NCBI GenBank assembly: GCA_019637095.1
Contig: JAHBWG010000080.1
Coordinates: 1-42,917 of the forward strand
Source: Sandaracinaceae bacterium
GTDB lineage: Bacteria; Myxococcota_A; Polyangia; Polyangiales; Sandaracinaceae
Length of the DNA: 42,917 nucleotides
Direction of reading: 5' to 3'
The notes under the pieces: model-generated
Database searches by the model: none
What the model was told of the DNA's origin: nothing
The model's input: the letters and a program-made list of their open reading frames with translations, nothing else
Shown: positions 8,528 through 41,164 of the stretch, in pieces
How the letters are laid out: every line of letters begins with the position of its first letter
Numbering within the stretch: the stretch's first letter is position 1
Program-made: the position numbers and the translations under genes

Positions 8528-9553
8528 ATGGCGAGCCTCACCACCGGCGTCACGTCCCTCGCGTACGGCGCGCAGCACCTCGGCATGTTGGTCCCCGCGG
8601 CGGTCGCGCAGCGCGTCGTCCGCTTGGTGGGCGGCGTCGCGGCGCCCACGCCGGACCGCAAGACGATCGAGGAGCTCCGCAAGCGCCTGCGGGCGTTGAT
8701 GGCGAAGGACCTCGCCAACGTCGAGGAGGGGCTCTACCCGCGCCGCCTGCTCTTCCAGGTGCCGGTGGGCAAGTACGCGCGGGCGTTCCCGCGGCTCGTG
8801 CTCGACTTCCCGCGCTCGATCGTGCGCCGGCGGATGCGCGCGTACCGCGACCTGCCCGACGAGGTCGACGACAAGCTCTACCCGCCGTACTTCCGCCGGA
8901 CGTTCCACTGGCAGACCGACGGCTACCTCTCGCGCCGCTCCGCCGAGCTCTACGACGTCGGCGTCGAGTTCCTCTTCGCGGGCACCGCCGACGTGATGCG
9001 CCGGCAGGTGATCCCGCCGATCACGCGCTGGCTCGAGGCGAACGGAGGCCCGCGCGGCAAGCGCCTGCTCGACGTCGCGTGCGGCACCGGCCGCACGCTC
9101 GCGCAGCTCCAGCTCGCGCACCCCGCGCTCAAGCTCTACGGGCTCGATCTCTCGCCCTACTACGTGCAGCTCGCGCGCGAGTCGCTCGACGACGTCGCGC
9201 TCGTCGCCGAGAACGCGGAGGCGATGCCCTTCGCGGACGCCACGTTCGACGTGGTGACGAGCACGTACCTCTTCCACGAGCTGCCGAAGAACGCGCGCCG
9301 CAAGGTCCTCGCGGAGATGGTCCGCGTGCTCAAGCCCGGCGGCCTCGTCGTGATCGAGGACTCGGGCCAGCTCGTCGAGGCGGGCCCCATCGCCTTCTTC
9401 CTCCAGCGCTTCCCCGAGGACTTCCACGAGCCCTTCTACGCGGAGTACCTCGCGGACGACCTCGCGATCCCGATGGCCGAGGCGGGCCTCGTGAACGTAC
9501 AGACGCAGCCGTGCTTCGTCGCGAAGGTGATCGTCGGCGACAAGCCGCGTTGA
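8528..9553 (+). CDS. Class I SAM-dependent methyltransferase with N-terminal extension (UbiE-like core)
   Basis: 341 residues. The last ~190 form a Methyltransf_11/UbiE-type core: motif I LLDVACGTGRTL (about 180-191), acidic GLDLS after motif II, AENAEAMPFADATFDVV, and VLKPGGLVVIEDSG. About 150 residues precede it and include a basic amphipathic stretch (PRSIVRRRMRAY) and FHWQTDGYLSRRS. The extension may position a lipid or quinone substrate. Substrate undetermined. Confidence 0.85.
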   Translation: MASLTTGVTSLAYGAQHLGMLVPAAVAQRVVRLVGGVAAPTPDRKTIEELRKRLRALMAKDLANVEEGLYPRRLLFQVPVGKYARAFPRLVLDFPRSIVRRRMRAYRDLPDEVDDKLYPPYFRRTFHWQTDGYLSRRSAELYDVGVEFLFAGTADVMRRQVIPPITRWLEANGGPRGKRLLDVACGTGRTLAQLQLAHPALKLYGLDLSPYYVQLARESLDDVALVAENAEAMPFADATFDVVTSTYLFHELPKNARRKVLAEMVRVLKPGGLVVIEDSGQLVEAGPIAFFLQRFPEDFHEPFYAEYLADDLAIPMAEAGLVNVQTQPCFVAKVIVGDKPR

Positions 9554-10609: not shown

Positions 10610-11785
10610 ATGGCCGCTCCGCGCATCGAGGGCACCGTCGCGGCTGGCTACGAGCGCGTGCGCGCCGCGTTCGCGCAGAACTTCGTCGAGCGCGGCGAGC
10701 TCGGCGGCGCCGTCTGTGTCTACCGCGACGGGGAGAAGGTCGTCGACCTCTGGGGTGGGCTCCGCGACCGCGCGAGCGGCGCGCCGTTCCGCGAGGACAC
10801 CATGGCCGTCGTCCACTCGACGACCAAGGGGCTCGCTGCGATGGTCCTCGCGCTCCTGCACTCCCGCGGGCTGCTCGACTACGACGAGCGCGTCGCGACG
10901 TACTGGCCGGACTTCGCGATGGCGGGCAAGGAGCGGGTCACCGTGCGCCAGCTCCTCGCGCACCAGGCGGGGCTGCACGCCTTCGACGAGCGCGTCGATC
11001 GCGCCGTCGTCGCCGACCTCGAACGCCTCGCCCGGATCATGGAGCGCCAGCGCCCCGCGTGGCCGCCGGGCGAGCGGCAGGCCTATCACGCGATCACGCT
11101 CGGCTTCTACGAGGGCGAGCTCGTGCGGCGCCTCGATCCCGCGCACCGCACGCTCGGCCGAGCCTTCGACGAGGACATCGCGGCGCGGCTGCGCCTCGAC
11201 GCGTACCTGCGCGTCCCCGAGTCGATCTCCGACGCGCGCCTCGCGCCGCTCGAGGCGCCCTCGCTCCTGCGCCGCCTCCGCGCGATGCCGCTCTCGTTCA
11301 CGCTCGCGGCGATGAACCCCCGCTCGGTGCTTCACCGCGCGCTCATCGCGAACCCGGGGACGGGCTTCTACCTCGACCCGCGGCGCGTCGTCGTGCGCGA
11401 GCTCGAGGCGCCATCGGGCCTCGCGGTCGCCAGCGCCCGCGCGCTCGCGAGGGCGTACGGCGTCTTCGCGAGCGGCGGCCGCGAGCTCGGGCTGCGCCCC
11501 GAGACCCTCGCGGAGCTCGAGGCGCCCGCGAGGCCGTCGCGCAACGGCTTCCACGACGAGCTCTTCGGCGCGGAGGCGCGGTTCTCGCTCGGCTTCATGA
11601 AGCCGAACGAGAGCGTCCGCTTCGGTCACGACGACCGCGCGTACGGCGCGCCGGGCACGGGTGGATCGATCGGCTACGCGGATCCTTCACGGGGCATCGG
11701 CTACGGGTACGTCACGAGCCGCATGGGGCTGCACCTCGAGGGAGATCCGCGCGACCTCGCGCTCCGCGCCGCGATCCCGGAGTGA
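10610..11785 (+). CDS. Serine hydrolase, beta-lactamase/EstB (class C-like) family
   Basis: 391 residues. Ser70-Thr-Thr-Lys73 is the SxxK nucleophile motif, Tyr159-His-Ala161 is in the place of YxN, and GTGGSIGY near 345 corresponds to the third active-site strand. The family comprises esterases, peptidases and class C-like beta-lactamases. There is no signal peptide from ATG 10610, so it is probably a cytoplasmic esterase/peptidase of the EstB/LACTB type rather than a resistance enzyme. Longer frames upstream look composition-driven. Confidence 0.85.
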   Translation: MAAPRIEGTVAAGYERVRAAFAQNFVERGELGGAVCVYRDGEKVVDLWGGLRDRASGAPFREDTMAVVHSTTKGLAAMVLALLHSRGLLDYDERVATYWPDFAMAGKERVTVRQLLAHQAGLHAFDERVDRAVVADLERLARIMERQRPAWPPGERQAYHAITLGFYEGELVRRLDPAHRTLGRAFDEDIAARLRLDAYLRVPESISDARLAPLEAPSLLRRLRAMPLSFTLAAMNPRSVLHRALIANPGTGFYLDPRRVVVRELEAPSGLAVASARALARAYGVFASGGRELGLRPETLAELEAPARPSRNGFHDELFGAEARFSLGFMKPNESVRFGHDDRAYGAPGTGGSIGYADPSRGIGYGYVTSRMGLHLEGDPRDLALRAAIPE

Positions 11786-26803: not shown

Positions 26804-28066
26804 ATGCGCCCGCTCGCTCTCGCCCTCACGCTGCCCTTCGTGTTCCTCACCGCGTGCGACGCGGGCGCGCCCGACGACGCCGCCGTCGGCGCCGACGCCG
26901 GCGCGTCCGACGCGGGCGGCGCGGACGCGGGTGCGACCGACGGCGGGGCCCTCGACGCGGGCGCGACGGATGGTGGGGCGATCGACGCGGGGCCCGGCGA
27001 GTGCCCGCGCGCGCTCGCGCCGGCGGACCGCGTGCGTCGCGTCGTCGTCTCGCACCCGTTCACCGACGGCGGCGACGACGACCGCTACGAGGTCCTCACG
27101 CTCGCCGAGGACGGCACGCTCGCGCAGCCCGGCACGACGTTCAACATGCGCCGCGCGAGCGGCGGCGAGATCGTGTTCACGCCCGACGGCGAGATCGGCT
27201 TCGTCGCGCAGAGCGACGGCTCGGTCGGGGTGTTCCGCCTCGACGCGGACGGGCGCCCGACGGTGCTCAACCCGGCGCTGCGCGAGGGCTTCTACGCGAG
27301 CCACGTCGTCATGGATCCGTCCGGCGCGCACGCGTGGGTGCTCGACGCGCAGTGGCGCGAGTCGGGCGGTGGGATCTACCGCCTCGCGATCGGCTGCGAC
27401 GGGCGTGTGCGCGCGACGACGAAGGTGGCCGAGGCGCGGCTCGCCTACGCGATGGCGCTGCGCGCCGACGGCCGGGCGCTCGTCGCGGCGCGCGACATCC
27501 TCGACTCGCCCGAGGGCGCGGACGCGCACCTCGTCGACCTCGGCGCGCCCGCGGTGCGCGCGAGCGCGGACGCGTTCGACGACGACTGGATCGCGTCGTC
27601 GGCGGCGCTCAGCGCGAACGGGCGCCACTTCCTCGTCGCCGACAACGCGGCGTTCTCGGGCGGCGATCGGGTCGCGGTCGTCGGCGTGGCCGGCGACGCG
27701 CTGAGCCGCGTCCAGGTCCTCTCGCCGATCCAGGATCCGGTCTCGATCGCGCTCTCGCCCTTCGACGACCTCGCCCTCGTGGTGAGCGGGTTCGGCGACG
27801 CGATCTTCGTCGTCGACTACACGCCCGACGCGGCGAGCCCGTTCGCGGTGCGCGGCCCGCTCACGTACGTGGGCGCGCGCCCCGCGCTCCCGGGCGCCGC
27901 GGTCACGATCACGCGCGGCGCGCTCCGCGGCCTCGTGCTCGTGGCGGAGAACGTGTCGGTGCGCCGCGTGCGCTTCGACGGCGGCGGCGCCGTCACCGAC
28001 CTCGGCGCGCACTCCGTCGGCGAGGGCGTGCCCGCGATCGTCGGCGCCATCGGCGTCCAGCCCTGA
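26804..28066 (+). CDS. Propeller-like lipoprotein
   Basis: 420 residues. The signal MRPLALALTLPFVFLTAC has an LTAC lipobox. A linker of repeated DAG/DGG units (about 24-65) leads to repeated strands of the type GEIGFVAQSDGSVGVFRLDADG and VVMDPSGAHAWVLDA (given here as shorter pieces: GFVAQSDGSVGVF and DPSGAHAWVL). This matches a seven-bladed beta-propeller surface lipoprotein. The ligand is unknown. It is next to, and convergent with, an L,D-transpeptidase gene. Confidence 0.75.
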   Translation: MRPLALALTLPFVFLTACDAGAPDDAAVGADAGASDAGGADAGATDGGALDAGATDGGAIDAGPGECPRALAPADRVRRVVVSHPFTDGGDDDRYEVLTLAEDGTLAQPGTTFNMRRASGGEIVFTPDGEIGFVAQSDGSVGVFRLDADGRPTVLNPALREGFYASHVVMDPSGAHAWVLDAQWRESGGGIYRLAIGCDGRVRATTKVAEARLAYAMALRADGRALVAARDILDSPEGADAHLVDLGAPAVRASADAFDDDWIASSAALSANGRHFLVADNAAFSGGDRVAVVGVAGDALSRVQVLSPIQDPVSIALSPFDDLALVVSGFGDAIFVVDYTPDAASPFAVRGPLTYVGARPALPGAAVTITRGALRGLVLVAENVSVRRVRFDGGGAVTDLGAHSVGEGVPAIVGAIGVQP

Positions 28067-28092: not shown

Positions 28093-30147
28093 TCAATTCA
28101 CGGCGGGCTCGGCCTCGGCGCGCGCCTGCGCCTGTAGCTCGGCGGGGAGAGGGAAGAAGCCGGTCGGGGGGCGCGTGGCGTTGCCGCGGATGTTGCCGGG
28201 CAGCACCTCGACCGGCACCGGCGGGTCGAGGTCGAACAGGAACCCGCGCTGCGTCAGCTCGAGCACGTGCATCTCCTCCGAGCCGGCCGGGCGCAGCTCG
28301 CGCCGCAGCGACGCGGCGATCTGCCCCTGCGTCGTGTACGCGCGGTGGTGCAGGAGGAAGCCGCCCATGCGCACCGCGAGGTGGTTGAAGAGGCGGTGAC
28401 AGCCGTGGCTGTAGCCGCGCAGGATCGAGCGGTAGCTCACCGAGCCGTGGCTGCGGATGCCGTTGTCGAGCAGCTCCGCGCCCGGGCCCTCGCCGCGCTG
28501 GATGTGGTGGATGACCATCGCGAGGCCGTACGCGCTGTCGTAGCCCGGCCCCGTGATCGAGTCGTTCACGCGCCAGGTGCTCCCGGAGCGCACGAGCAGC
28601 TCGTCGTCGGGCGTCGAGGGGGGCGGCAGCCACGCGGGGCCGGCGATCAGGTGCCGCCAGATCCGCGGGCCCACGTCCGACTCCTTGTACCGCATGCCGA
28701 CGCCGCCCTGTGGGTTCACCTCGGGCTGCCACCCGCCGATCGTCGTGTTCCAACGCACGAGCGCGATCTCGCGGCCCTCGTGGCGCGCGAAGATCGTCGT
28801 GACCGGGCGGTTGCGCTGCACCATGCCGCGCGGGCGGCCGTCGGGGGTGAAGGGGAACGCGTAGTGGACGTCGCCGCGATCGATCTCGACGCGCAGGTCC
28901 ATCTGCCGCGAGTGGTACTCGGGCGGCGGCGGCAGCGGCAGCGCGACGACGCGGTGGTCGGCGCGCTCTCGCGCGTGCGCGTCGAGCCACGCGAGCGCCG
29001 CCGCCGGGTCCGTCCAGCCGAGCGCGCGCGCCGCGGCGTCCGTCTGCGCGGAGACGAGATCCGGCGCGCCGTTCGGGAGCGGGGGCACGCGCCCGACCGC
29101 GCGGAACTCGTCGTCGATCTGGAGCTGGCGGCCGACGACGGTGCCCCACTGGTTGCTCGCGGAGCCGTCCTCGAGGATCCCCGTCGCGTCGACCACGCGC
29201 TCGCGCAGCGCGCGCAAGAGGGTGAGGAAGTCGAGCTCGCGGCTGTCCATCGTCAGCGAGGCGCGCGTCGTCTCGTCGAGCCGGCCGGCGAGGCTGATGA
29301 TCATGTGGCGCGACTGCCAGATGCGGATCGCGCGGCCCGTGTGCGCGTCCAGCTCCCCGTCGCGCGCGCGAGAGGAGAGCGTCCCCTCGCAGCGCAAGTG
29401 CGCTTGCACCGCGCGGATCGCCGCGACCACGGGCTCCATGCGCCGAAGGCGCCGCACCTCTTGCGCTTCGCGCGAGTTGCTCCCGTCGTCGAGCGCGTCG
29501 ATGGACGGAAGGCGCCGACGCCGCGCCACGTCCTCGAGCCGGCGCCGCAGGACCTGCACCGACATCACGCGGCGGCGCTGCCCGGTGGGGTCCGAGCCGG
29601 GGCGGATCGTGTCGTCGAGCGACGCGATCGCCGCGTCGTCGACCGCGTCGTGGCAGCGGTGCCGCTCCTCGTCCGCGAGGCGCGCGCGCACCACGTTCAG
29701 CGTGGGGAAGATGCCGTAGAGCTCGAGGTGCCGCTCCATCGGGTCGCGCTGGCGGCGGTGCTGCTCGTTGGCGAGCCGGAGGAACTCGCGGCGGTACGGC
29801 TGGCGGCCGCGCGCGCCGAGCGAGGGGTCCTCCGTGAAGATCGTGGGCGCCCAGGCCTCGCCGAGGTCGACGAGGGCGAGCCCGCGTCGCTCGGCGCGCT
29901 CGCGCGTGACGGGGCGGCGCGCTCGGCCGTCCGTCCAGAACGGGATGTCGCCCGGCGGGCCGGTCTCGTCGAGCTCCTCGTCCACCCCGACGGCGTCCGC
30001 GCGCGCCTCGTCGCTGCCGCCCTCGGTCACGCGCGCCTCGTGCGTCTGTCCGACCGGCTGCGCGGGCCCCGAGGGCCCCGCGCACGAGCCGAGCGCGATC
30101 GCGATCGCGAGGGCGTGGGATCGGGAGCTCGTCGCGTGCTGGACCAT
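28093..30147 (-). CDS. L,D-transpeptidase (YkuD) lipoprotein
   Basis: 684 residues from ATG 30147. The signal ends in ALGSC, a good lipobox. A helical N-terminal half includes a peptidoglycan-binding-like stretch (GRLDETTRASL). The YkuD catalytic motif is SHGCHRLFN with Cys near residue 583, preceded by the conserved IRSHGSVSY. These enzymes cross-link peptidoglycan or attach proteins to it. His replaces the more usual residue after the Cys, before Arg. TATGGG 5 bp upstream supports the start; the RBS-like GGGTGAG is an alternative. Confidence 0.85.
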   Translation of the reverse strand: MVQHATSSRSHALAIAIALGSCAGPSGPAQPVGQTHEARVTEGGSDEARADAVGVDEELDETGPPGDIPFWTDGRARRPVTRERAERRGLALVDLGEAWAPTIFTEDPSLGARGRQPYRREFLRLANEQHRRQRDPMERHLELYGIFPTLNVVRARLADEERHRCHDAVDDAAIASLDDTIRPGSDPTGQRRRVMSVQVLRRRLEDVARRRRLPSIDALDDGSNSREAQEVRRLRRMEPVVAAIRAVQAHLRCEGTLSSRARDGELDAHTGRAIRIWQSRHMIISLAGRLDETTRASLTMDSRELDFLTLLRALRERVVDATGILEDGSASNQWGTVVGRQLQIDDEFRAVGRVPPLPNGAPDLVSAQTDAAARALGWTDPAAALAWLDAHARERADHRVVALPLPPPPEYHSRQMDLRVEIDRGDVHYAFPFTPDGRPRGMVQRNRPVTTIFARHEGREIALVRWNTTIGGWQPEVNPQGGVGMRYKESDVGPRIWRHLIAGPAWLPPPSTPDDELLVRSGSTWRVNDSITGPGYDSAYGLAMVIHHIQRGEGPGAELLDNGIRSHGSVSYRSILRGYSHGCHRLFNHLAVRMGGFLLHHRAYTTQGQIAASLRRELRPAGSEEMHVLELTQRGFLFDLDPPVPVEVLPGNIRGNATRPPTGFFPLPAELQAQARAEAEPAVN

Positions 30148-30243
30148 TCTCACCCATAGTTCTGCGTACATCCGGGCCGCGATGCAAAGATTCAACAGAC
30201 CTCGGGCCGCGCGCGATTCCGGCGCGGTGTCGCGCGCGTCGGC

Positions 30244-32277
30244 TCAATGCGCTGCGAGCACCATGTCGATCGCGAGCGTGCGCCCCGGGAGCGGGAAGCC
30301 GAGCAGGTCGAAGCCGCGCTGGTCGAAGACGTCGCGCACGACCGCGTCGACGCGCAGGCGGCCATCCCAGACCGCGAGCGTGACCCCGACCCCGAAGCGC
30401 GTGCGGGCGGCGAGGGCGCTCGTGTTCGCCGGGTCCCAGGAGGTCTCCGAGACGTGCTCGACGTCGACGAACGCGCCGAGCACGTCGAGCGGGCCGACGC
30501 CGAGCGCGCGCACCTCGGGTCGCGCGTAGCCGGTGAGCCACGGGCGCAAGGGGAGCTGTCGCTCGCGGCCGAGGTGCTCGGTCCACGTGCCGAGGAGGGT
30601 CCAGGCCGTCACGAGCGTGAAGTGCCGCTCGAGCTCGACGCGCGCGCCGAGCTCCGCGCCGGCGAGCGTGGCGCTCGCGACGTTCTCGGGCACGGCCTGG
30701 TAGAGCGTGTTGCGCCGGTAACGGATGAGGTCGCTCGCGAACGTGACGAACCCGCGGAGCTCCGCGCGGCCGCGCAGCGCGCCGCTCTGGCCGGCGAGCA
30801 CGAGCCCGAGGTCGATCGTCTCGGCGCGCTCCGGCGCGAGCGTCGCGACGCCGACGAGGAAGCCCCGGTCGCCGAAGAGCTCGACCTGGTTGGGCACGCG
30901 GGTCGCGCTCGCGACGCTCGCGGCGATCGTCACGCCGCGCGCCGGCTCGAGCGCGCCGCCGAGCCGGAAGGTCGGCGCGAGCGTGATCGAGCTCGCGGCG
31001 GGCGCGCCGAGGTGATCGGGCCGCAGATCGGAGAGGCGCGCGCCCACGAGCGCGAGCCGCGCCGACGGCCGCAGCTCGGCGCGCACTCCGTCGAGCGCGC
31101 CGAACGCGCGCGCCTCGAGCGCGAGGTTCCCCTCGTCGCGCGCGCTGTCCTGGTTCGGCGTGCGCGCGAGCCGATCCGTCGGCCACAGCGACTCGTGGAC
31201 GTAGAGGGCCGCGCCGATGAGCTCGAGCCAGTCGAGCGCGCGGCCGGCCGCGGCGACACGCACGGTCGCGCGCGCGGCGAGGTCGTCGGCCTCGACCGGC
31301 ACGAGGCCGATCTCCGCGAGCGGGTCCGACAGCGTCCGGCGCCGTACGCCCGCCGCGACCGAGAGCGCGAGGCGCCACGCGGCGACGTCGTCGGCGCGGC
31401 CGCCCTCGCTCATCGCGTAGCTCACGCCGGCGAGCCCCTCTCCGTCGGCGCGCCGGGTGTGGAGGGCGGGCTGGACCGCGCGACCGGGCACGCCGCCCTG
31501 ACGCCCGCGGCCCAGGACGAGCGCGCTCAGCACGCCGTCGCCGAGGCGCAGCGTCAGGTGGCCCAGGCCCGCGCCCTCGCTGAGCCACGCGTTCTCGCGC
31601 CGCCGCTCGACCTCGTCGGCGCCGTCGAGGAGCGTGACCGACGCGGTATAGGGGAAGTCGCTTTGCGTGCTGGTCGCGCCCGCCGCGACGAGCCACGCCG
31701 CGTCGCCGTGGGCGCCCGCGTGCATCGCGCGGCCGTGCGCGAGCCCGTAGGCGCCGAGCCCGCCCGCCGCGCCGAGCGCCGGCCCGCGGCCGGCCTCGCG
31801 CGGGACGAGCCGCAGGACGCCGCCGATCCCGGAGCGCGCGAGCCAGCTCGGCGCGCCGCCGCGGTAGACCTCGACGCGGTCGAGCACCCAGAGCGGGATC
31901 GACGAGAGGTCGAACGGGCTCCCGTCCGCGGTCGTGAGCGGGACGTCGCCGAACAGGATCTCCACCTGGTCGGCCTCGCTCCCGCGGAGCGAGAGGGTGG
32001 TCGGGCTGCCGAAGCCTCCCGAGCGCAGCGCGCGCGCGCCGGGCGCCTCGAGCACCGCGTCGGCGAGCGTGTCGAGCGCGGTCGGCCGCTCGGTGGCGTC
32101 GATCTCGGTCGCGCTCGCGCTCGGATCGTCGCCCCCCGCGCGCGCCATCGGGCGGGGCACCTCGGCGGTGACGCCGAGCTCCTCCTCGTCGTCCTGGGCG
32201 TCCTGGGCGTCCTGTGCCGCCGCGCGTGCCTCGAGCGCGAGCACGACGGACAGGGCGATCGCCGAGACGCGGTGCAC
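30244..32277 (-). CDS. TonB-dependent outer-membrane receptor (BtuB-like)
   Basis: 677 residues from GTG 32277. A signal peptide (about 1-22) is followed by a possible TonB box (EELGVTAEV, near 32-40). The plug domain has LSLRGSEADQVEILFGDVPL and SSIPLWVLDRVEVYRGGAPS (first part quoted short: LRGSEADQVEILF). A long barrel with alternating strands runs to residue 677, ending in VLAAH rather than the usual aromatic residue. The plug resembles vitamin B12/siderophore receptors. It is 1 kb from a cobalamin riboswitch but on the other strand, so not under its control. TATGGG is 6 bp before the start. Confidence 0.85.
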   Translation of the reverse strand: MHRVSAIALSVVLALEARAAAQDAQDAQDDEEELGVTAEVPRPMARAGGDDPSASATEIDATERPTALDTLADAVLEAPGARALRSGGFGSPTTLSLRGSEADQVEILFGDVPLTTADGSPFDLSSIPLWVLDRVEVYRGGAPSWLARSGIGGVLRLVPREAGRGPALGAAGGLGAYGLAHGRAMHAGAHGDAAWLVAAGATSTQSDFPYTASVTLLDGADEVERRRENAWLSEGAGLGHLTLRLGDGVLSALVLGRGRQGGVPGRAVQPALHTRRADGEGLAGVSYAMSEGGRADDVAAWRLALSVAAGVRRRTLSDPLAEIGLVPVEADDLAARATVRVAAAGRALDWLELIGAALYVHESLWPTDRLARTPNQDSARDEGNLALEARAFGALDGVRAELRPSARLALVGARLSDLRPDHLGAPAASSITLAPTFRLGGALEPARGVTIAASVASATRVPNQVELFGDRGFLVGVATLAPERAETIDLGLVLAGQSGALRGRAELRGFVTFASDLIRYRRNTLYQAVPENVASATLAGAELGARVELERHFTLVTAWTLLGTWTEHLGRERQLPLRPWLTGYARPEVRALGVGPLDVLGAFVDVEHVSETSWDPANTSALAARTRFGVGVTLAVWDGRLRVDAVVRDVFDQRGFDLLGFPLPGRTLAIDMVLAAH

Positions 32278-32395
32278 GGCGGCCCCATAGCGCAGACGGG
32301 CGCGCGTCGCGATCGCGCCGGCCCTCGGGAGGGGATGGTGCGCCCGGGCGGGGCGTACCAGCGTGAGCGAGGTACGCTCGGGCGCGGGAGTGAGG

Positions 32396-32809
32396 ATGGA
32401 CGACGGCGGGTTCAGCTTCGGCTACTTCATGGCGGAGGGCGGCGCGTCGATGTGGGCCGCGCTGTGCTGCGGGAGCTTCGGGAACACGCTCGCGCTCGTG
32501 GCGCTGGGCGTGCTCGTGGCGAGGAAGCGCGCCGCGGCGATCGGCGTGGGCGCGGCGACGCTGCTCGCCGGGGTCGGCACGCTCGGGGTCGGGGTGCTCG
32601 GCTACTGGCTCGGGGTGCGCGCCGTGGACCAGGCGCTCTTGGCCGCCGACGCGGCGTTCGTGGCGGAGATGCGCGAGCGCGGGCTCTCCGAGGCAGCGAA
32701 CAACCTCTGGCTCGGCGGGCTCGCCTCCGCGGTGCCGCTCCTGGTCGGCGCGCTCGCGATCGCCGTGGGCGCGCTGCTCCCGCGCGGTCGCGACGACCGC
32801 GCCGAGTGA
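32396..32809 (+). CDS. Small three-helix membrane protein, possibly ExbB/TolQ-like
   Basis: 137 residues. The N-terminal FMAEGGASMW followed by three membrane segments recalls the start of MotA/TolQ/ExbB proteins, but it is short and lacks the long cytoplasmic loop. It is divergent from the TonB receptor gene, with 118 bp between. GTG 32363 is an in-frame alternative. ExbB-like identity is a guess. Confidence 0.5.
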   Translation: MDDGGFSFGYFMAEGGASMWAALCCGSFGNTLALVALGVLVARKRAAAIGVGAATLLAGVGTLGVGVLGYWLGVRAVDQALLAADAAFVAEMRERGLSEAANNLWLGGLASAVPLLVGALAIAVGALLPRGRDDRAE

Positions 32810-32855
32810 CCGCGCGGCGCGAGCTCGACGCGCGCGAGCACCCCTCGGCAGACCG

Positions 32856-33212
32856 TCAATACCCGGTGTCGCGCAGCGCCTCGATCCGGCGCACGTCGTC
32901 GCGGCTCGCGATGCGATGGAGCGTCGCGATCTGGACCTGGCCGACGGCGACGAGCCCGAGGCGGGTGAGCAGGAGCGACGAGAGGACGTCGTCGCCGGGC
33001 GGGCGGCGGTGGAAGAAGACCTTCACGGCGAGCCGCTCGTCCGTCCCGCGGCGGACGGTCACGGCCAGGTCGGGATCGAGCCGATCGAGGTGATCGTCGG
33101 TCCACGTCGGCGCGGGGCTCTCGGTGCTCACGAGGACGATCGGGGCGGAGGGCGCGCCGCAGGCGAGGCACAGCGCGAGGGACAGGGAGGCGAGGGAGAG
33201 AGATCGGGTCAC
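32856..33212 (-). CDS. Small lipoprotein of unknown function
   Basis: 118 residues from GTG 33212; GTG 33248 adds twelve. The signal SLSLASLSLALCLACG ends at a Cys. The mature part has ERLAVKVFFHRRPPGD and LLTRLGLVAVGQVQIATL, and has the size and pattern of an inhibitor- or propeptide-like alpha/beta domain, which I infer only weakly. Its start lies just before the cobalamin riboswitch on the opposite strand. Confidence 0.5.
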   Translation of the reverse strand: MTRSLSLASLSLALCLACGAPSAPIVLVSTESPAPTWTDDHLDRLDPDLAVTVRRGTDERLAVKVFFHRRPPGDDVLSSLLLTRLGLVAVGQVQIATLHRIASRDDVRRIEALRDTGY

Positions 33213-33270
33213 CCTCCACTCGTGACGCGGCGGAGCCGTTGCATTCACGCGCGGTTCGGGCCAGGCTGCC

Positions 33271-33458
33271 GGCGTTCGTGGTTCTGCCGCGTTCGCGCGG
33301 CGGCGAAGAGGGAACCCGGTGAGAGTCCGGGACTGCCCCGCAGCGGTGAGCGGAAACGACCGTCGCCATCGTGCACTGGGCCTCGGCCTGGGAAGCGGTG
33401 ACTACTAGGTGCCTCGTCGAAGGCGTGTCCGCGAGTCCGAAGACCTGCCACGGATGCC
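33271..33458 (+). promoter_or_regulatory. Cobalamin (B12) riboswitch
   Basis: All core elements are in order: P1 arms (33271-33281 with 33448-33458, 11 pairs with two G-U), GGGAACCCGGTGAGAGTCC, CTGCCCCGCAGCGGTGA, CACTGGGCCTCGGCCTGG, GGAAGCGGTGA and the B12 box AGTCCGAAGACCTGCC. The pattern matches the class-I (AdoCbl) type. TTGCAT (33239) and CAGGCT (33262) are weak -35/-10 candidates that would start the RNA at about P1. The downstream palindrome TCGGGATCCCGA (33484-33495) abuts the Shine-Dalgarno AGGGGAGG, suggesting translational control. Confidence 0.95.
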
Positions 33459-33483
33459 GCGTTTCCTATCGTTCGCGGCGGTT

Positions 33484-33502
33484 TCGGGATCCCGAGGGGA
33501 GG
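33484..33502 (+). promoter_or_regulatory. Palindrome overlapping the Shine-Dalgarno site, likely expression platform
   Basis: TCGGGATCCCGA can fold on itself and its end merges with AGGGGAGG (33495-33502), seven bases before ATG 33510. Cobalamin-dependent folding could hide the ribosome site. No T-run for a terminator is present. Confidence 0.55.
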
Positions 33503-33509
33503 TTCCGAG

Positions 33510-34256
33510 ATGGCTTCGGTCCACACCGTTCTCATCTTCTTCGCGTTGGTTTCGCTCCAGTTCTCGCTCGCCGGCTGCGACGGCGTGTCCATGCCCGGGA
33601 CGGGTGACGCCGGCCCGCCGACCGTCGCCCGCGCCGACACCGTGGTCGACGCGCCCGGCGCGGGCGCCGGACCGTTCCGCGACCCGAGCCGCGCGATCGA
33701 CGGGGTGCGCGGCGGCGGCCTCGGCGCGGGCAGCCTCGACGTGTACTCCATCGACTATGGCACGCACCTCGTCTTGTCATGGGGTGGCCGCCGCGTGCTC
33801 GACGGCCCGGGCGTCGACCTCGTCGTGTTCGAGAACCCGTTCCACTACGGAGACGGGCTCACGTTCATGGACCCGGCGATCGTCGAGGTCTCGGTCGACG
33901 GCGAGGCGTGGGTCGCGCTCCCGCACGAGTACGCGGCCGACGACCCGAGCGTGTACTCCGCGCGCGGCGCGGACTGGCGAGGCTTCGCGGGCGTCACGCC
34001 GGTGACCCTGCACGAGGAGCATCACCCGGTCGATCCGTTCGATGTCAGCGCGGCCGGCGGCGACGGCTTCGATCTCGCGACGCTCCCCGACGAGGGCGAG
34101 GCCGGACGGATCCGGCGCGAGGGCGCCGCGCTCGTGCGCATCCGCGCCGCCCACGATCACGTCGATCCGCGCACGGGCGCGCGCTACCCGCGCGATCCCG
34201 TCGCGAACGGGCCGGACATCGACGGCGTCTACGCGCGCTACGTGAGCGCGTGGTGA
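33510..34256 (+). CDS. Riboswitch-controlled surface lipoprotein (LIC_13355-like)
   Basis: 248 residues. The signal ends with LAGC, followed by a DAG linker. The rest carries GVDLVVFENPF, DPAIVEVSVDGEAW and DPRTGARYPRDP, patterns of a secreted family (LIC_13355-type) that I associate with cobalamin loci. It is the first gene behind the riboswitch and is translated from AGGGGAGG. Its stop overlaps the next start (GTGA), so the pair is coupled. Family recollection is unverified; the riboswitch link is solid. Confidence 0.75.
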   Translation: MASVHTVLIFFALVSLQFSLAGCDGVSMPGTGDAGPPTVARADTVVDAPGAGAGPFRDPSRAIDGVRGGGLGAGSLDVYSIDYGTHLVLSWGGRRVLDGPGVDLVVFENPFHYGDGLTFMDPAIVEVSVDGEAWVALPHEYAADDPSVYSARGADWRGFAGVTPVTLHEEHHPVDPFDVSAAGGDGFDLATLPDEGEAGRIRREGAALVRIRAAHDHVDPRTGARYPRDPVANGPDIDGVYARYVSAW

Positions 34257-35452
34257 GGGTCGCCCTCGTGCTCGCGCTGGCGTGCGGATGCACCGCGCCA
34301 TCGGGCGACTGCGCGCGCGCCGACCTCGCGCCGCCGCCGCGCGCGCCGGCCTACGCGCTCGTCGCGAGCGACTACTCCTCGAGCGCGATCGGCCTGCTCG
34401 ACACCGACGGCTCCGTGATCACAGCGGCGTGGCTCGACTCCGGCGCGCGGCCGCCGGGGGTCGTCGCGGCCCTGAGCGGCGACGTGGTGCTGCCGACCGC
34501 GCCGTTCGCGCCGTGCACGGTCGTCCTCGTCGACCGGTTCGGCACCGACGTGGTCAGCTGGCTCGACCCGTGCGGCGGCGAGCCGGTGCGCGGGCAGCTC
34601 GACGTCGGGCGATCGCTCGCCTCGAACCCGCACGACGTCTTGCGGGTCGGCGCGGCCGCGTGGGTCACCCGCTACGGCGTGGGCCTGGGCGCCGCGGCCG
34701 ACTCGATCGAGCGCGGCAACGACGTCGTGGTCGTCGAAGGCGGTCGCATCGCGCGCCGGATCGATCTGGGCGCGCTCGCCGACGACGGCGAGACGTTCGC
34801 CCGCCCCGATCGGATGGCGCGCATCGGGCCAGCCGGCGCGGAGCAGGTGGTGGTCGGCCTCGGGCGGCTCTCGGCGGACTTCATGCGGACCGGCCCCGGC
34901 GCCGTCGCGCTCGTCGATCCGCGCACCCTCGAAGCGCGGCTCGTGCCGATCGCGGGGCTGTCGGGCTGCGGCGAGCTCGATCCGATCGGCGAGGTGGTCG
35001 TCGTGACGTGCCAGGGCGAGGCGTTCGGCGACGCGGCGGCGCGGCGCGCGCGCGCGGGCGTCGTCGCGCTCGGCCTCGATGGCGCCGGAGGCCTCGTGGA
35101 GCGCGCCGCGTTCCGCGCGGCCGAGCATCCGTCGCTGCCCGTGCCCACCGGGCCGACGATCGCGCTCGCGGAGGACCGCTGGCTCACCGTCGCGTTCGGG
35201 GACATCCCGGCGGGCACGCCGGATCGCGCGCTCGGGATCGCGCGCGGGCAGGCCGAGGTGTGGCTCGAGGCGGCGCCGTTCACGCTGGGCGAGGGCGTCT
35301 ACGACGCCGCGCACGATCTCTTGCTCCTGCCCGACGCGGGCGCGAGCGTGATCCGGCGGCTGCGCGGCGACGGGACCGAGCGCGAGCCCATCGACGCGAC
35401 CGGCTGCCACGGGCTCCCACCGCGCGAGATCGCGCGCGTCGCTTTTCCGTGA
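34253..35452 (+). CDS. Beta-propeller-like lipoprotein in the cobalamin operon (BtuG analogue candidate)
   Basis: 399 residues from GTG 34253. VRVALVLALACGC has Cys at 11 and 13 as possible acylation sites. Repeating strands follow: YALVASDYSSSAIGLLDTDG, TVVLVDRFGTDVVSWLD and LTVAFGDIPAG. A late LLLLPDAGASVIRRL shows another blade. A propeller lipoprotein under B12 control is the architecture of Bacteroides BtuG, which binds B12 on the surface. Homology is not shown. It is overlapped by the upstream gene and followed by a Kazal-type lipoprotein. Confidence 0.75.
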   Translation: MRVALVLALACGCTAPSGDCARADLAPPPRAPAYALVASDYSSSAIGLLDTDGSVITAAWLDSGARPPGVVAALSGDVVLPTAPFAPCTVVLVDRFGTDVVSWLDPCGGEPVRGQLDVGRSLASNPHDVLRVGAAAWVTRYGVGLGAAADSIERGNDVVVVEGGRIARRIDLGALADDGETFARPDRMARIGPAGAEQVVVGLGRLSADFMRTGPGAVALVDPRTLEARLVPIAGLSGCGELDPIGEVVVVTCQGEAFGDAAARRARAGVVALGLDGAGGLVERAAFRAAEHPSLPVPTGPTIALAEDRWLTVAFGDIPAGTPDRALGIARGQAEVWLEAAPFTLGEGVYDAAHDLLLLPDAGASVIRRLRGDGTEREPIDATGCHGLPPREIARVAFP

Positions 35453-35484
35453 CGGATCCGGCGCGCCCCGGCCACGCACCCGGC

Positions 35485-36930
35485 ATGAACCGTCCGAGCG
35501 CGGTCGCGCCTTCTCTTCTCTTCGGGCTCCTGTTCCTGTCGCTGGCCGGCTGCCAGCGCGTCCACGTCGGCACGCACGACGGCGGCGCCGAGGACGCGGG
35601 CGAGCGCGTGCGCTGCGGGCCGGTGACGTGCGAGCAGGGGCAGGTCTGCTGCAACGCGAGCTGCGGCATCTGCACGGCGCCCGGCGGCACCTGCGTCGAG
35701 ATCGCGTGCACCACCGAGTGCGCGGGCAACGCGGAGTGCGCGCCGGACGAGTACTGCGCGCTCTCGCACTGCCCCGACGGGCGCCGCGACGGCGTGTGCG
35801 TGCCCCGGCCCGAGGCGTGCCCCGAGTACTACTCGCCGGTCTGCGGCTGCGACGGGCGCACGTACGACAACCCCTGCTTCGCGAGCGGGTCGGGCGCGGT
35901 CGTCGCGCACGCCGGCGCCTGCACCGGCCCGTGCGCGCCGATGGACGCGCGGGGCCAGGGGGACTGCGCGGCGATCGTCGGCATCGTGTGGGATGGCGCG
36001 CGCTGCACGTACATCGGCGGCTGCTCGTGCGTGGGCGCGGACTGCGGCGCGACCTACGCGACGCTTCACGACTGCGAGGTCGCGCGCGCCGGCTGTCACT
36101 CGTGTGCGCCGCAGGACTTCCGCGGAGAGGGGCCCTGCGAGGCCGAGCTCGGCACGTACTGGGACGGGACGGCCTGCCGCACGATCAGCGGGTGCCGGTG
36201 CCTCGGCGCCGACTGCGACAACGGCTGGCCGGACCCGATGGCCTGCCAGGTCGCGCACCAGCACTGCTTCGGGCCGCCCCCCGGGTGCACCACCTCCGCC
36301 GACTGCCCGATGGGCGAGTGGTGTCAGACCCCGCGCGGCGCGTGCGGCGGGCCCGGGACGTGCGTCCCGCCGGCGCCGCCGGGCTGGTCCTGTCCGGATC
36401 CGGGCCCGCCCGTCTGCGGCTGCGACGGCGTCACGTACGGGTGCGACGCCATGGCGATCTCGCTCGGGGTGAACGTCGCGAGCGACGGCGCCTGCAACGG
36501 CTCGTGCGCGCCGCAGGACGCCTCGGGGGAGGGCCTCTGCGACGGGTTCTTCGGGTACGCGTGGACGGGGATGAGCTGCTTCGGCGTGTCCGGCTGCAAC
36601 TGCGTGGGGCGCGACTGTGGGAGCCTCGCGATGACCGAGGAAGAGTGCCTCGCGCGCTACGCCGGCTGCGAGCGGGCGCCCGGCGGTGAGTGCGGCGGCT
36701 TCGCCGGCTTCGTCTGCCGCCCCGACGAGTGGTGCGACTACGAGTCGGGGCCCGGGCGCCCCGGCTGCGGCGCGGCCGACGACCTCGGCCGGTGCCGTCC
36801 GCGCCCGGTCGACTGCACCTTCCTCGAGGACCCGGTGTGCGGCTGCGACGGCCGCACGCACGGCAACGAGTGCATGGCGAACGCCGCGGGCGTCGACATC
36901 GGCGCGCGCGGCGCCTGCCCGATGCTTTGA
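35485..36930 (+). CDS. Kazal-type multidomain Cys-rich lipoprotein
   Basis: 481 residues. LSLAGC is the lipobox, and a DGGAEDAG linker follows. Three Kazal-like modules (PVCGCDGRTYDNPC near 117-130, PVCGCDGVTY near 309, PVCGCDGRTHGNEC near 450) alternate with three ~57-residue modules starting CAPxD and containing GCxCxGxDC (near 150, 206, 341). Order: K-A-A-K-A-K. Kazal domains inhibit serine proteases. ATG 35485 is 32 bp after the propeller gene, so it is likely in the same operon. Confidence 0.75.
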   Translation: MNRPSAVAPSLLFGLLFLSLAGCQRVHVGTHDGGAEDAGERVRCGPVTCEQGQVCCNASCGICTAPGGTCVEIACTTECAGNAECAPDEYCALSHCPDGRRDGVCVPRPEACPEYYSPVCGCDGRTYDNPCFASGSGAVVAHAGACTGPCAPMDARGQGDCAAIVGIVWDGARCTYIGGCSCVGADCGATYATLHDCEVARAGCHSCAPQDFRGEGPCEAELGTYWDGTACRTISGCRCLGADCDNGWPDPMACQVAHQHCFGPPPGCTTSADCPMGEWCQTPRGACGGPGTCVPPAPPGWSCPDPGPPVCGCDGVTYGCDAMAISLGVNVASDGACNGSCAPQDASGEGLCDGFFGYAWTGMSCFGVSGCNCVGRDCGSLAMTEEECLARYAGCERAPGGECGGFAGFVCRPDEWCDYESGPGRPGCGAADDLGRCRPRPVDCTFLEDPVCGCDGRTHGNECMANAAGVDIGARGACPML

Positions 36931-36963
36931 GCCGCGGTACGCACTCGGAGGCGGCCAGCGTGC

Positions 36964-36969
36964 TAGCGT
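36964..36969 (+). promoter_or_regulatory. TANNNT -10-like element (TAGCGT)
   Basis: Lies 5 bp before GTG 36975 and suggests the next gene has its own promoter rather than sharing the cobalamin operon. Confidence 0.45.
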
Positions 36970-36974
36970 AGGAC

Positions 36975-37838
36975 GTGCGCGACGACGTCCCGAGCCTGAC
37001 CGCGCGCGCGGTGGCCCTGGCCCGCGGGGTGGCCTCGCTCCCCGGGGGGCGGCGCGCACCGGCGCCCGATCCGCTCGCCGCGCGGCTGCTCGATCCGCTG
37101 CTCGGCCGCGCGCTCGACGGGCTCGCCCCGATCGCCGCGTTCACGCCCGCCGTCTCGTGGGCGCTGCGCCTCGCCTCGCTCGGGCTCGTCGATCACCTCG
37201 CGCTGCGCACCGCCGCCATCGACGCGGCCCTGCGCGCCGCGTGCGCGCGCGACGTCCCACAGGTCGTGTTGCTCGGCGCCGGGCTCGACGCGCGGGCGTT
37301 CCGGGTGCCGGAGCTCGCGGGGCGGCGCGTGCTCGAGGTCGATCACCCCGCGACGCAGCGCTTCAAGCGGCGGCGCGTCGAGGGCCTCACGCCGTTCGCC
37401 TCGGAGCTCCGCTTCGTCTCGGTCGACTTCACCCGCGAGGACCTCGGCGTGCGGCTCGCCGAGGAGGGGCACGACACGACGCGCGCGACGTTCTGGATCT
37501 GGGAGGGCGTCGTGCCGTACCTGCCCGAGGAGGTGACGCGCGCGACGCTCGCGACGCTCGCGGCGCGCTCCGCGGCGGGGAGCGGGCTCGCGGTGACCTA
37601 CGGGACGCGTGACGACGCGCTCTGGCTCGCGCGGCTCGGCGCGCCGGTGCACCTCGCCTTCCGCGCGCTCGGCGAGCCGCTCCACGGGCTCACGACCGTC
37701 GAGCGCATGCAGGGGCTGCTCGCGGCGACCGGCTGGCATGTCGAGCACGACAGCGGCCCCGCGGACTGGCGCCGTCGGTTCGGCTACGGGCGCCTGCTGA
37801 CGATCGAGGAGCGCCTCGCGGTCGCGACGAAGGCGTGA
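36975..37838 (+). CDS. Leucine-carboxyl-methyltransferase-like SAM-dependent methyltransferase (TIGR00027-type)
   Basis: 287 residues. VVLLGAGLDARAFRV (about 97-111) is the glycine-rich SAM motif with the conserved Asp-Ala-Arg, VLEVDHPATQ (117-126) holds the acidic residue, and IWEGVVPYLPEEV follows. This is the LCM/PPM family, which methylates carboxyl groups or small acids. Substrate unknown. GTG 36975 follows the TAGCGT box. Confidence 0.85.
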   Translation: MRDDVPSLTARAVALARGVASLPGGRRAPAPDPLAARLLDPLLGRALDGLAPIAAFTPAVSWALRLASLGLVDHLALRTAAIDAALRAACARDVPQVVLLGAGLDARAFRVPELAGRRVLEVDHPATQRFKRRRVEGLTPFASELRFVSVDFTREDLGVRLAEEGHDTTRATFWIWEGVVPYLPEEVTRATLATLAARSAAGSGLAVTYGTRDDALWLARLGAPVHLAFRALGEPLHGLTTVERMQGLLAATGWHVEHDSGPADWRRRFGYGRLLTIEERLAVATKA

Positions 37839-39300: not shown

Positions 39301-40812
39301 TCACTCGGTCACGACGACGTGGCTGCCGCGAAGCTCGGTCTGCTCCGTCGCGACGCCGTGCCATCCGTCGGGCAGGCGCGGCCACGTCCGCGCGAACACG
39401 TAGTGCGCGTCGTGCGGCGTGAGGTTCACGCAGCCGTGCGAGCGCGGCAGCCCGAAGCCCGTGTGCCAGAACGCGGTGTGGAGCGCGTAGGCGCCCTCGA
39501 AGTACTGCGTCCACGGCACGTCCTCGATCGAGTAGCGATCGTCGGTCATGTCGGAGCCGAGGTTGCTCATCGTGTCGGTCACGTGCTTGCGCCGGATCTC
39601 GAAGATCCCCGTCGGTGTCGCGTGGCCCTCGAGGCCGGTGGAGACGAGCGTCGCGTAGCGCGGCGTGTCGCCCTCGTAGAGCACCAGCGTCTGCTCGCTC
39701 AGATCGACGTGCACCCAGGGCTCGTCGGGCGCGACGCCGTCGGGGCGCGCGATGCGCTCGGCGACGGACGCGAACCACGCGCGCAGGTAGCGCGGTCCCG
39801 CGCTCGTCCCGAGCACGTGCACGAGCTGGCCGCCGACGTTGCGCCGGCCCTCCCAGCCCTCCAGCCAGGTCTGCCGCTCGATCGCGGGCGCGTCGTCGTC
39901 GTTGACGAGGGCGCCGTCGTCGCCGAGCCGCATCGGGCGCGCGGCGCGCACCGTCCACGCGATCGGCAGCGTGCGCTCGGGCCCGAGCTCGACGCCGCGG
40001 AACGTGTGGCCGCTGCGCGGCTCGAGCTGCGCCTGCTTGATGAAGCGGCCCTGCGTGGTGCGCACGAACCGCCGGAACGCGCGCAGCTCGAAGCCGCTCG
40101 ACGCGACGTAGAAGCCGCGGTCGAGGTAGCGGTTCACGACCGCGGTGCCGCGCGGGCCGTCGTCGCTCTCGCCGGCGAGGTAGCGGCGGGCGCGCCGCTC
40201 GTCGATCGCGAGCAGCTCGCGGAACCGGTCCGCCTTCGCGCCGGCGGCGCGCTGCTCGTCGCGCGACGGCAGCCGGTGGTACTCGGGCACCGTCGACTCG
40301 CGCACGTACCAGTAGTCGTAGGGCAGCGCCGCGTCGCGCGCGATCGGCGGCAAGACGAGCGCGCCGCGCGCGCGCGCCGCCTCGACCTGCCCGTCCTTCC
40401 AGCCCTCGAGCGTCGGCTCCTCGAGCTCGATCGGCTGCTCGCGCACCTCGAGCGCGTCGTCGTCGCAGACGTAGCCGAGCGGGTGCGCGCGGCGCCACGC
40501 GGCGCAGCCCGGGCCGCGCGTCGCCTCGCTCGCGAGGCGCACGCGGGCGCCGGTGCGCAGCCACCCGACGACCGGCGCGCCCTCGTCGGGCCGCGTGCGG
40601 ATCGTCGTCACGATGCCCGTGAACGCCGCGTGCATCGGGTACTCCGCGTCGAGGCGGGCCGCCGCGCGCTCCTCTTCGGTCGCCTCCGGCGGGAGCGCCG
40701 CCTCGGCGCGATCGGCCGCGGACACCGCCGCGGCCTCGATGTCGGCCGTCCCCTCGCGCTCTGCTCCGCAGGAGGCCAGCACGAGCGACAGGGCCGCGGC
40801 GAACGAGCGCAT
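39301..40812 (-). CDS. L,D-transpeptidase (YkuD) lipoprotein with SH3-like N-terminal region
   Basis: 503 residues. LVLASC is the lipobox. A small SH3-like region (TAFTGIVTTIRTRPDEGAPV, here in part: GIVTTIRTRP) lies near 50-100. The YkuD domain at the C-terminus has HVDLSEQTLVLYEGD, TPTGIFEI and the active-site SHGCVNL with Cys near 461. It is a peptidoglycan cross-linking or anchoring enzyme. TAGGCC is 8 bp before ATG 40812. The second such enzyme in the window. Confidence 0.85.
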   Translation of the reverse strand: MRSFAAALSLVLASCGAEREGTADIEAAAVSAADRAEAALPPEATEEERAAARLDAEYPMHAAFTGIVTTIRTRPDEGAPVVGWLRTGARVRLASEATRGPGCAAWRRAHPLGYVCDDDALEVREQPIELEEPTLEGWKDGQVEAARARGALVLPPIARDAALPYDYWYVRESTVPEYHRLPSRDEQRAAGAKADRFRELLAIDERRARRYLAGESDDGPRGTAVVNRYLDRGFYVASSGFELRAFRRFVRTTQGRFIKQAQLEPRSGHTFRGVELGPERTLPIAWTVRAARPMRLGDDGALVNDDDAPAIERQTWLEGWEGRRNVGGQLVHVLGTSAGPRYLRAWFASVAERIARPDGVAPDEPWVHVDLSEQTLVLYEGDTPRYATLVSTGLEGHATPTGIFEIRRKHVTDTMSNLGSDMTDDRYSIEDVPWTQYFEGAYALHTAFWHTGFGLPRSHGCVNLTPHDAHYVFARTWPRLPDGWHGVATEQTELRGSHVVVTE

Positions 40813-40897
40813 CGCGCCGTGGCCTACCAGAGCGCGCGCGGCCCGCAAGCGCGCCCGCGCGGGTGTAAGCGCGCGCCGCGGTGCGCGTTGGGCGCGC

Positions 40898-41164
40898 ATG
40901 AACCTCCGCCGCTGTCCCTGCTGCCCCGCCTTCCTGCCCTCCGGCGCGCCCTCCTGCGCGCTTTGCGCCCGCGCGATCCCGCGCTGGCTGCGCCGCGCCG
41001 CCGTCCTCGTCGGCGGCGCGGGCGCCGCGGTGACGCTGTCCGCGTGCTACGGCGCGCCCTGCGCCGGCGGCGGGGGAGCCTGCTACGAGACCTTCCCGGA
41101 GCCGGCCACCGAGTGCGCCGACCGCTCGGCGGCGGGCGGCGACGGCGCCTGCGACGAGCCGTGA
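40898..41164 (+). CDS. Small zinc-ribbon/membrane Cys-rich protein
   Basis: 88 residues. CPCC (6-9) and CALC (20-23) are probable zinc knuckles, followed by one membrane helix (about 31-48) and a Cys-rich tail (CYGAPCAGGGGACYETF). No family recognised. ATG 40898 has no strong RBS; TAAGCG is 26 bp upstream. Confidence 0.5.
   Translation: MNLRRCPCCPAFLPSGAPSCALCARAIPRWLRRAAVLVGGAGAAVTLSACYGAPCAGGGGACYETFPEPATECADRSAAGGDGACDEP

Follow-up and report, generated by a model that had tools for sequence, protein, structure and literature searches.

A cobalamin riboswitch operon in a Sandaracinaceae bacterium encodes predicted BtuH-like and BtuG-like lipoproteins beside a BtuB-like receptor

A predicted cobamide capture-and-import module in a myxobacterium

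The whole stretch of DNA analysed in this study, referred to as the window, comprises positions 1 to 42,917 of contig JAHBWG010000080.1 from a Sandaracinaceae bacterium (Myxococcota; assembly GCA_019637095.1). On its forward strand, a cobalamin (vitamin B12) riboswitch is followed by three co-directional open reading frames (ORFs), named ORF1, ORF2, and ORF3. The locus is very probably a cobamide capture-and-import module of the BtuB/BtuG/BtuH-like type, whose lipoproteins are divergent in sequence and predicted to bind the ligand. A preliminary description of positions 33271-36930 had proposed a surface B12-capture module formed by three lipoproteins in a myxobacterium. For ORF1 and ORF2, their family, their fold, and the conserved linkage to riboswitches support this proposal; the third lipoprotein lacks an independent B12 link. 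The same description reported no transporter gene, which holds inside the quoted interval only, as a TonB-dependent receptor (TBDR) is encoded about 1 kb upstream at 30244-32277 on the reverse strand. Stand-alone capture without transport was thus not upheld: the BtuB-like receptor lies beside the riboswitch operon, and in relatives it lies inside the operon.

The cobalamin riboswitch and the leader

The Rfam covariance model of the cobalamin riboswitch, RF00174, matched positions 33262-33466 (+) in full length (model positions 1-189 of 189), scoring 111.5 bits where the gathering score is 31.5 (E 2.9e-27). The P1 helix, the core, and the B12 box were all aligned to the model. The riboswitch with B12 box and P1 proposed earlier from the sequence was thus verified by the covariance search that had been suggested as its check. 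No other RNA-family match in the window reached its gathering score. A second, weak riboswitch heading the TBDR gene was considered and ruled out, since a permissive Rfam rescan of 30000-37500 revealed no second cobalamin element.

The aptamer ends 43 bases before the ORF1 start. When 33455-33540 was folded, a weak hairpin (z -1.6) was predicted at 33484-33508 (+), containing part of the Shine-Dalgarno sequence GAGGGGAGG (33494-33502). This hairpin is the probable expression platform; the whole leader was not more stable than its shuffled versions (z -0.88), and the assignment is therefore kept as a prediction. No terminator-like site was found between the aptamer and ORF1, and the sigma-70 promoter scan gave no match. 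In the related genome G002, the Shine-Dalgarno sequence can pair with the 3' edge of the aptamer in a 10-bp stem, as read from the sequence. Known cobalamin riboswitches suggest, by analogy, that control is probably exerted by a translational OFF switch. On the other strand, a small lipoprotein-like ORF (32856-33248) starts 14 bases from the riboswitch, and its homologue is also divergent from the riboswitch in G005 (L094:9325-10419, 2.2e-20).

ORF1 is a LIC_13355 family lipoprotein with a BtuH-like fold

ORF1 (33510-34256, +) and ORF2 (34253-35452, +) overlap by GTGA at 34253-34256, where the TGA stop of ORF1 meets the GTG start of ORF2; the coupling of two genes in the preliminary description is hereby confirmed. 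That all three genes encode lipoproteins is clear for ORF1 and ORF3, each with the lipobox LAGC. The ORF2 lipobox is weak in the window copy (ALAC/CGC) and clearer in homologues, for example LLAAC.

ORF1 scored above the cut-off of the curated NCBIfam family NF033170, "LIC_13355 family lipoprotein" (139 versus 120 bits). Its AlphaFold2 model, built with 33 sequences, reached a mean predicted local distance difference test (pLDDT) value of 91.8. The best VIA structure match was the B12-binding domain of BtuH2 from B. thetaiotaomicron (residues 313-592; Z 12.8, root-mean-square deviation (rmsd) 3.4, 163 aligned), and the second was the H-domain of BtuG1 (residues 392-660; Z 12.2, rmsd 3.6, 167 aligned). 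BtuG1 was also the top Foldseek match. Discoidin- and CBM32-type domains ranked after BtuH, with Z of at most 11.3. BtuH itself has been described as having modest similarity only to discoidin/CBM32-type domains, for example AlyQ (PMC8941943), and AlyQ appears in the ORF1 list at 9.7. The model thus points to a BtuH-like fold within the discoidin type, with a modest lead. Since the profiles of ORF1 and its Bacteroidota relatives do not retrieve BtuH chains in the PDB profile search, ORF1 is not classed as a BtuH member. The assignment of ORF1 to DUF4465/BtuJ (PF14717) was also considered and rejected, with no Pfam match and an hhalign value of 0.2%. Binding of B12 by ORF1 is predicted mainly from its context, as described below.

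The ORF1 family is linked to cobalamin riboswitches across phyla

Genome contigs were scanned with the ORF1 alignment, and 80 loci were retrieved by similarity to ORF1 alone. These loci span Myxococcota, Bacteroidota, Gammaproteobacteria, Burkholderiales, Planctomycetes, Verrucomicrobia, and candidate phyla. Within the retrieved DNA, a same-strand RF00174 riboswitch was found upstream in 64 of the 80 loci, compared with a rough chance expectation of about 0.1. Of these, 46 loci were identified via whole-genome coordinates plus a core motif, and for 20 of them Rfam confirmed the riboswitch on the locus as well; the remaining 18, including two weak ones, were identified by running Rfam on the locus. 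L132 and L137 were not counted because their whole-genome riboswitch coordinates failed verification on the loci. A TBDR matching the profile of the window's receptor was present in 39 of the 80 loci.

The distant Bacteroidota members belong to the same superfamily as ORF1 (hhalign 99.6%, E 1.7e-23), and they adjoin DUF4465 (PF14717) proteins and DUF5074 propellers. The profile of these DUF5074 propellers matches BtuG structures with E down to 1e-87, and B12 binding has been shown for eight DUF4465 members (PMC13398666). One Bacteroidota protein of 694 residues (L171:9707-11788) is a fusion that combines an ORF1-like with a DUF4465 domain, and its neighbours are a BtuB-like receptor and a propeller resembling BtuG.

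The fold of ORF1 also allows a different explanation, namely a carbohydrate- or matrix-binding discoidin-type adhesin whose position behind the riboswitch has nothing to do with uptake. The closeness of the discoidin and CBM32 scores to those of BtuH is in line with it, as is the binding of laminin and plasminogen by recombinant, refolded LIC_13355, an adhesin-like lipoprotein (PMC11891782). Against it stands the fact that, in phylum after phylum, the family is linked to riboswitches and to BtuB-like receptors, BtuG-type propellers, and DUF4465, and this explanation is given hardly any credence.

Two observations concern the riboswitches of this family. At three loci (L126-L128, in genomes G188, G106, and G087; family f34), LIC_13355 homologues scored above the family cut-off and no cobalamin riboswitch was found in the genomes; these genes may be under another regulator, or the riboswitch may have been missed by the stricter filters. 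On a Pirellulales contig (L198), the start of the ORF1-like gene has one cobalamin riboswitch before it and one after it (9285-9507 and 10652-10870), spaced by about 1.1 kb.

ORF2 resembles BtuG in fold and genomic context

ORF2 has no Pfam and no NCBIfam match. Its model, built from four sequences, is a beta-propeller. The best seven Foldseek matches were all BtuG (E 1e-8), and the best nine VIA matches were likewise all BtuG (Z 28.1-27.4), the top one having Z 28.1 and rmsd 3.2 over 303 aligned residues.

The context was evaluated with 27 ORF2 homologues drawn from 38 relatives that had been sampled regardless of riboswitches. A same-strand cobalamin riboswitch was present within 5 kb upstream in 19 of the 27, where about 0.02 was expected. 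The gene linkage expected of BtuG, with btuB and behind a cobalamin riboswitch, is seen in the relatives; the receptor is divergent in the window. In fold and context, ORF2 resembles BtuG.

The receptor is BtuB-like and joins the operon in relatives

The TBDR at 30244-32277 (-) matched Pfam Plug and TonB_dep_Rec above the cut-off. When the family profile of 14 homologues was compared with the PDB, the best match was E. coli BtuB (3e-41). BtuB accounted for 10 of the best 11 chains, including 8bmx, 8p97, 8p98, and 8blw from Bacteroides, and the other was the unassigned TonB-linked receptor 9gbc. Cir, PqqU/YncD, and haem receptors ranked below the BtuB chains. The NCBIfam BtuB equivalog TIGR01779 cut-off was missed (62.4 versus 599.7 bits), and the receptor is therefore called BtuB-like only, on the basis of the family profile and the operon context.

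The gene orders in relatives further clarify the position of the receptor. In G002 (L092), the riboswitch, ORF1, ORF2, and the TBDR follow each other on one strand, with the TBDR orthologue as the third gene and the ORF3 orthologue divergent. The order is riboswitch-ORF1-TBDR-ORF2 in G011 and G036, and riboswitch-TBDR-ORF2 in G001, G006, G018, G030, and G034; in G005 it is riboswitch-ORF1-ORF2-ORF3. Based on these orders and on the riboswitch linkage of the ORF2 homologues, the divergent TBDR of the window is most simply explained as a rearranged form of a conserved riboswitch-BtuB-propeller unit.

Evidence weighed against the cobamide module

Several results weigh against a BtuB/BtuG/BtuH-like module. 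The lead of BtuH over the discoidin domains is about 1.5 Z for ORF1. The ORF2 model is of middling confidence (pLDDT 74.8), and many other propellers follow BtuG closely in VIA (24-26.6 versus 28.1). ORF2 could not be linked to BtuG/DUF5074 by sequence (hhalign 5.7%, no PDB profile match), and for this reason it is not classed as a BtuG member. The receptor of the window is not itself behind a riboswitch, and its best single-sequence NCBIfam match was the myxochelin receptor MxcH, with TonB-B12 second, both far below the cut-off.

The MxcH match, together with the presence of the iron-binding propeller lipoprotein XusB among the ORF2 structure matches (Z 25), would fit lipoproteins that take another corrinoid, a tetrapyrrole-like ligand, or a siderophore via the receptor, the riboswitch merely reporting cobalamin status. 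However, the family profile of the receptor prefers BtuB to siderophore receptors by many orders of magnitude, BtuG stands above XusB in the ORF2 ranking, and the linkage to cobalamin riboswitches recurs across phyla. Another ligand is accordingly considered quite improbable, and cobamide capture and import is retained as the preferred reading of the locus.

Comparison with known B12-uptake systems

The Bacteroides BtuB-BtuG-BtuH loci of B. thetaiotaomicron (PMC6143338, PMC8941943, PMC10404256) share with the window a cobalamin riboswitch, a BtuB-type receptor, a propeller lipoprotein, and a BtuH-type lipoprotein. In Bacteroides BtuG1, the propeller and the BtuH domain are fused, whereas in the window they are encoded by the separate, coupled genes ORF2 and ORF1. 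The two systems also differ in the host, a member of Myxococcota here; in the lack of detectable sequence similarity of ORF1 and ORF2 to BtuH and BtuG, the PDB sequence-profile search with the two families having found no relative; in the divergent receptor that is not behind the riboswitch; and in the absence of BtuFCD from the window locus. The DUF4465/BtuJ proteins (PF14717; PMC13398666, PMC12751083) are likewise extracytoplasmic B12 scavengers, and in several phyla, Myxococcota among them, they are found next to BtuB and propellers. However, they form a separate family (augmented jellyroll) with no profile similarity to ORF1, and in Bacteroidota they stand side by side with, or fused to, ORF1-like domains.

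BtuG has been termed exclusive to Bacteroidetes (PMC6143338). In the literature searched, which covered few subscription papers, no description of a module of this kind in Myxococcota was found beyond the occurrence of DUF4465 there. The preliminary statement that such a module was not known to have been described is fair as regards Myxococcota and the LIC_13355 family; the BtuB/BtuG/BtuH kind of system is known from Bacteroides. With the present locus, riboswitch-controlled, lipoprotein-assisted B12 uptake, so far worked out in gut Bacteroides, would also include myxobacteria, and the proteins involved there are missed by sequence searches.

The LIC_13354-LIC_13355 pair of Leptospira

ORF1 is a member of the Leptospira LIC_13355 family by score, and the neighbourhood is also shared. 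In ten Myxococcota loci (L114-L123), a lipoprotein-like protein is encoded in the interval between the riboswitch and ORF1, for example at G067:C197:4332-4667 (-). It contains one or two domains, each about 110 residues long, and has the motif SRFDW...YCQTxFDA...GCGGFxWT. All three of the interval proteins tested matched NCBIfam NF047669, LIC13354_fam, weakly and below the cut-off (E 1.3e-3 to 1.3e-8). This family is named after the neighbour of LIC_13355, and an upstream LIC13354-like neighbour thus occurs in Myxococcota as it does in Leptospira. The LIC13354-like domain was found in 19 of 52 genomes, in 14 of them shortly downstream of a cobalamin riboswitch; it has no match in the PDB. This lipoprotein family is a probable further cobamide-related family.

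The difference lies in the described function: the Leptospira protein is reported as laminin- and plasminogen-binding, B12 is not mentioned in that report (PMC11891782), and a B12 role is absent from the papers found. The Leptospira data considered here come from published tables. In a host-implant model of L. interrogans, LIC13354 was up 3.77-fold and LIC13355 up 3.72-fold (PMC3953431). LBJ_RS15535, the LIC_13355 gene of L. borgpetersenii, stands two tags away from LBJ_RS15545, whose annotation is the lower-ligand enzyme CobT, the adjacency being taken from tag numbers only (PMC8055020). The expression of RS15530, 15535, 15540, and 15545 shifted in one direction (PMC8055020). The LIC_13354-LIC_13355 pair, mirrored in the myxobacterial B12-riboswitch operons, is probably a cobamide-scavenging pair.

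In a broader sense, it is somewhat probable that the LIC_13355 superfamily (NF033170 with its Bacteroidota, Pseudomonadota, and Planctomycetes-Verrucomicrobia-Chlamydiae (PVC) relatives, related to BtuH by structure) and the LIC_13354 family are cobamide-binding lipoproteins across phyla, and that the Leptospira pair, now listed as exoprotein and adhesin, are B12 scavengers. The orphan LIC_13355 family and its partner LIC_13354 hereby gain a testable function, for two proteins of a zoonotic pathogen that needs B12 as an essential nutrient.

ORF3 is a Kazal-domain lipoprotein

ORF3 (35485-36930, +) matched Pfam Kazal_1 (31.6 versus 21 bits) and Kazal_2 above the cut-off. Close orthologues were found only in G002, on the opposite strand, and in G005 and G008. 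The gene lies 32 bases 3' of ORF2 on the same strand, and this order is kept in G005 and G008, as would be expected if the whole three-gene operon were one B12-capture machine in which ORF3 binds B12 or shields the surface lipoproteins from proteases. The reversed orthologue in G002, the lack of an adjacent ORF3 in most relatives with riboswitch-ORF2 units, and the further Kazal paralogues elsewhere in the host genome argue against such a machine, which is regarded as unlikely. The participation of ORF3 in B12 uptake is doubtful, and the predicted module is limited to ORF1, ORF2, and the receptor in the window.

The host as a B12 importer and the proposed mechanism

The host genome is a 96%-complete draft of 9.25 Mb in 197 contigs. 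CbiC, which marks de novo corrin synthesis, was not detected in this draft, where its absence is not proof; the control search was positive in 7 of 14 genomes. The activation domain of the B12-dependent methionine synthase (MetH) was found as two pieces on two contigs. One FecCD permease was found, belonging to the only FecCD-type ATP-binding cassette (ABC) importer detected, and it adjoins a Peripla_BP_2 protein and an ABC-ATPase-like ORF on the same strand. These three results are suggestive of a B12 user that imports B12, and the locus suggests that the myxobacterium relies on cobamides supplied by its environment or by prey.

In the proposed mechanism, low intracellular cobalamin would let the riboswitch permit the translation of ORF1 and ORF2. 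At high cobalamin, the aptamer would close, and the hairpin at the ribosome-binding site would stop translation. The BtuH-like ORF1 and the coupled BtuG-like propeller ORF2 would reach the outer membrane and, exposed on the surface, bind scarce cobamides. ORF2 is probably the lid or hand-over partner of the BtuB-like receptor, with which it may form a complex, and the receptor would carry the cobamide into the periplasm. The FecCD-type importer probably completes the import, for the B12-dependent methionine synthase among others.

Other genes of the window and the second riboswitch of the host

The region is flanked by a TIGR00027-type S-adenosylmethionine-dependent methyltransferase (36975-37838, +) and an L,D-transpeptidase (YkuD) protein (39301-40899, -), and no B12 link was seen for either. 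The host genome contains two cobalamin riboswitches. A likeness between the lipoprotein at 26804-28066 of the window and the lipoprotein under the second riboswitch was considered, and none was found. The second riboswitch (C1:28268-28425; L002/L212) heads a lipoprotein without a family match, and a divergent ORF2 paralogue (98 bits) adjoins it.

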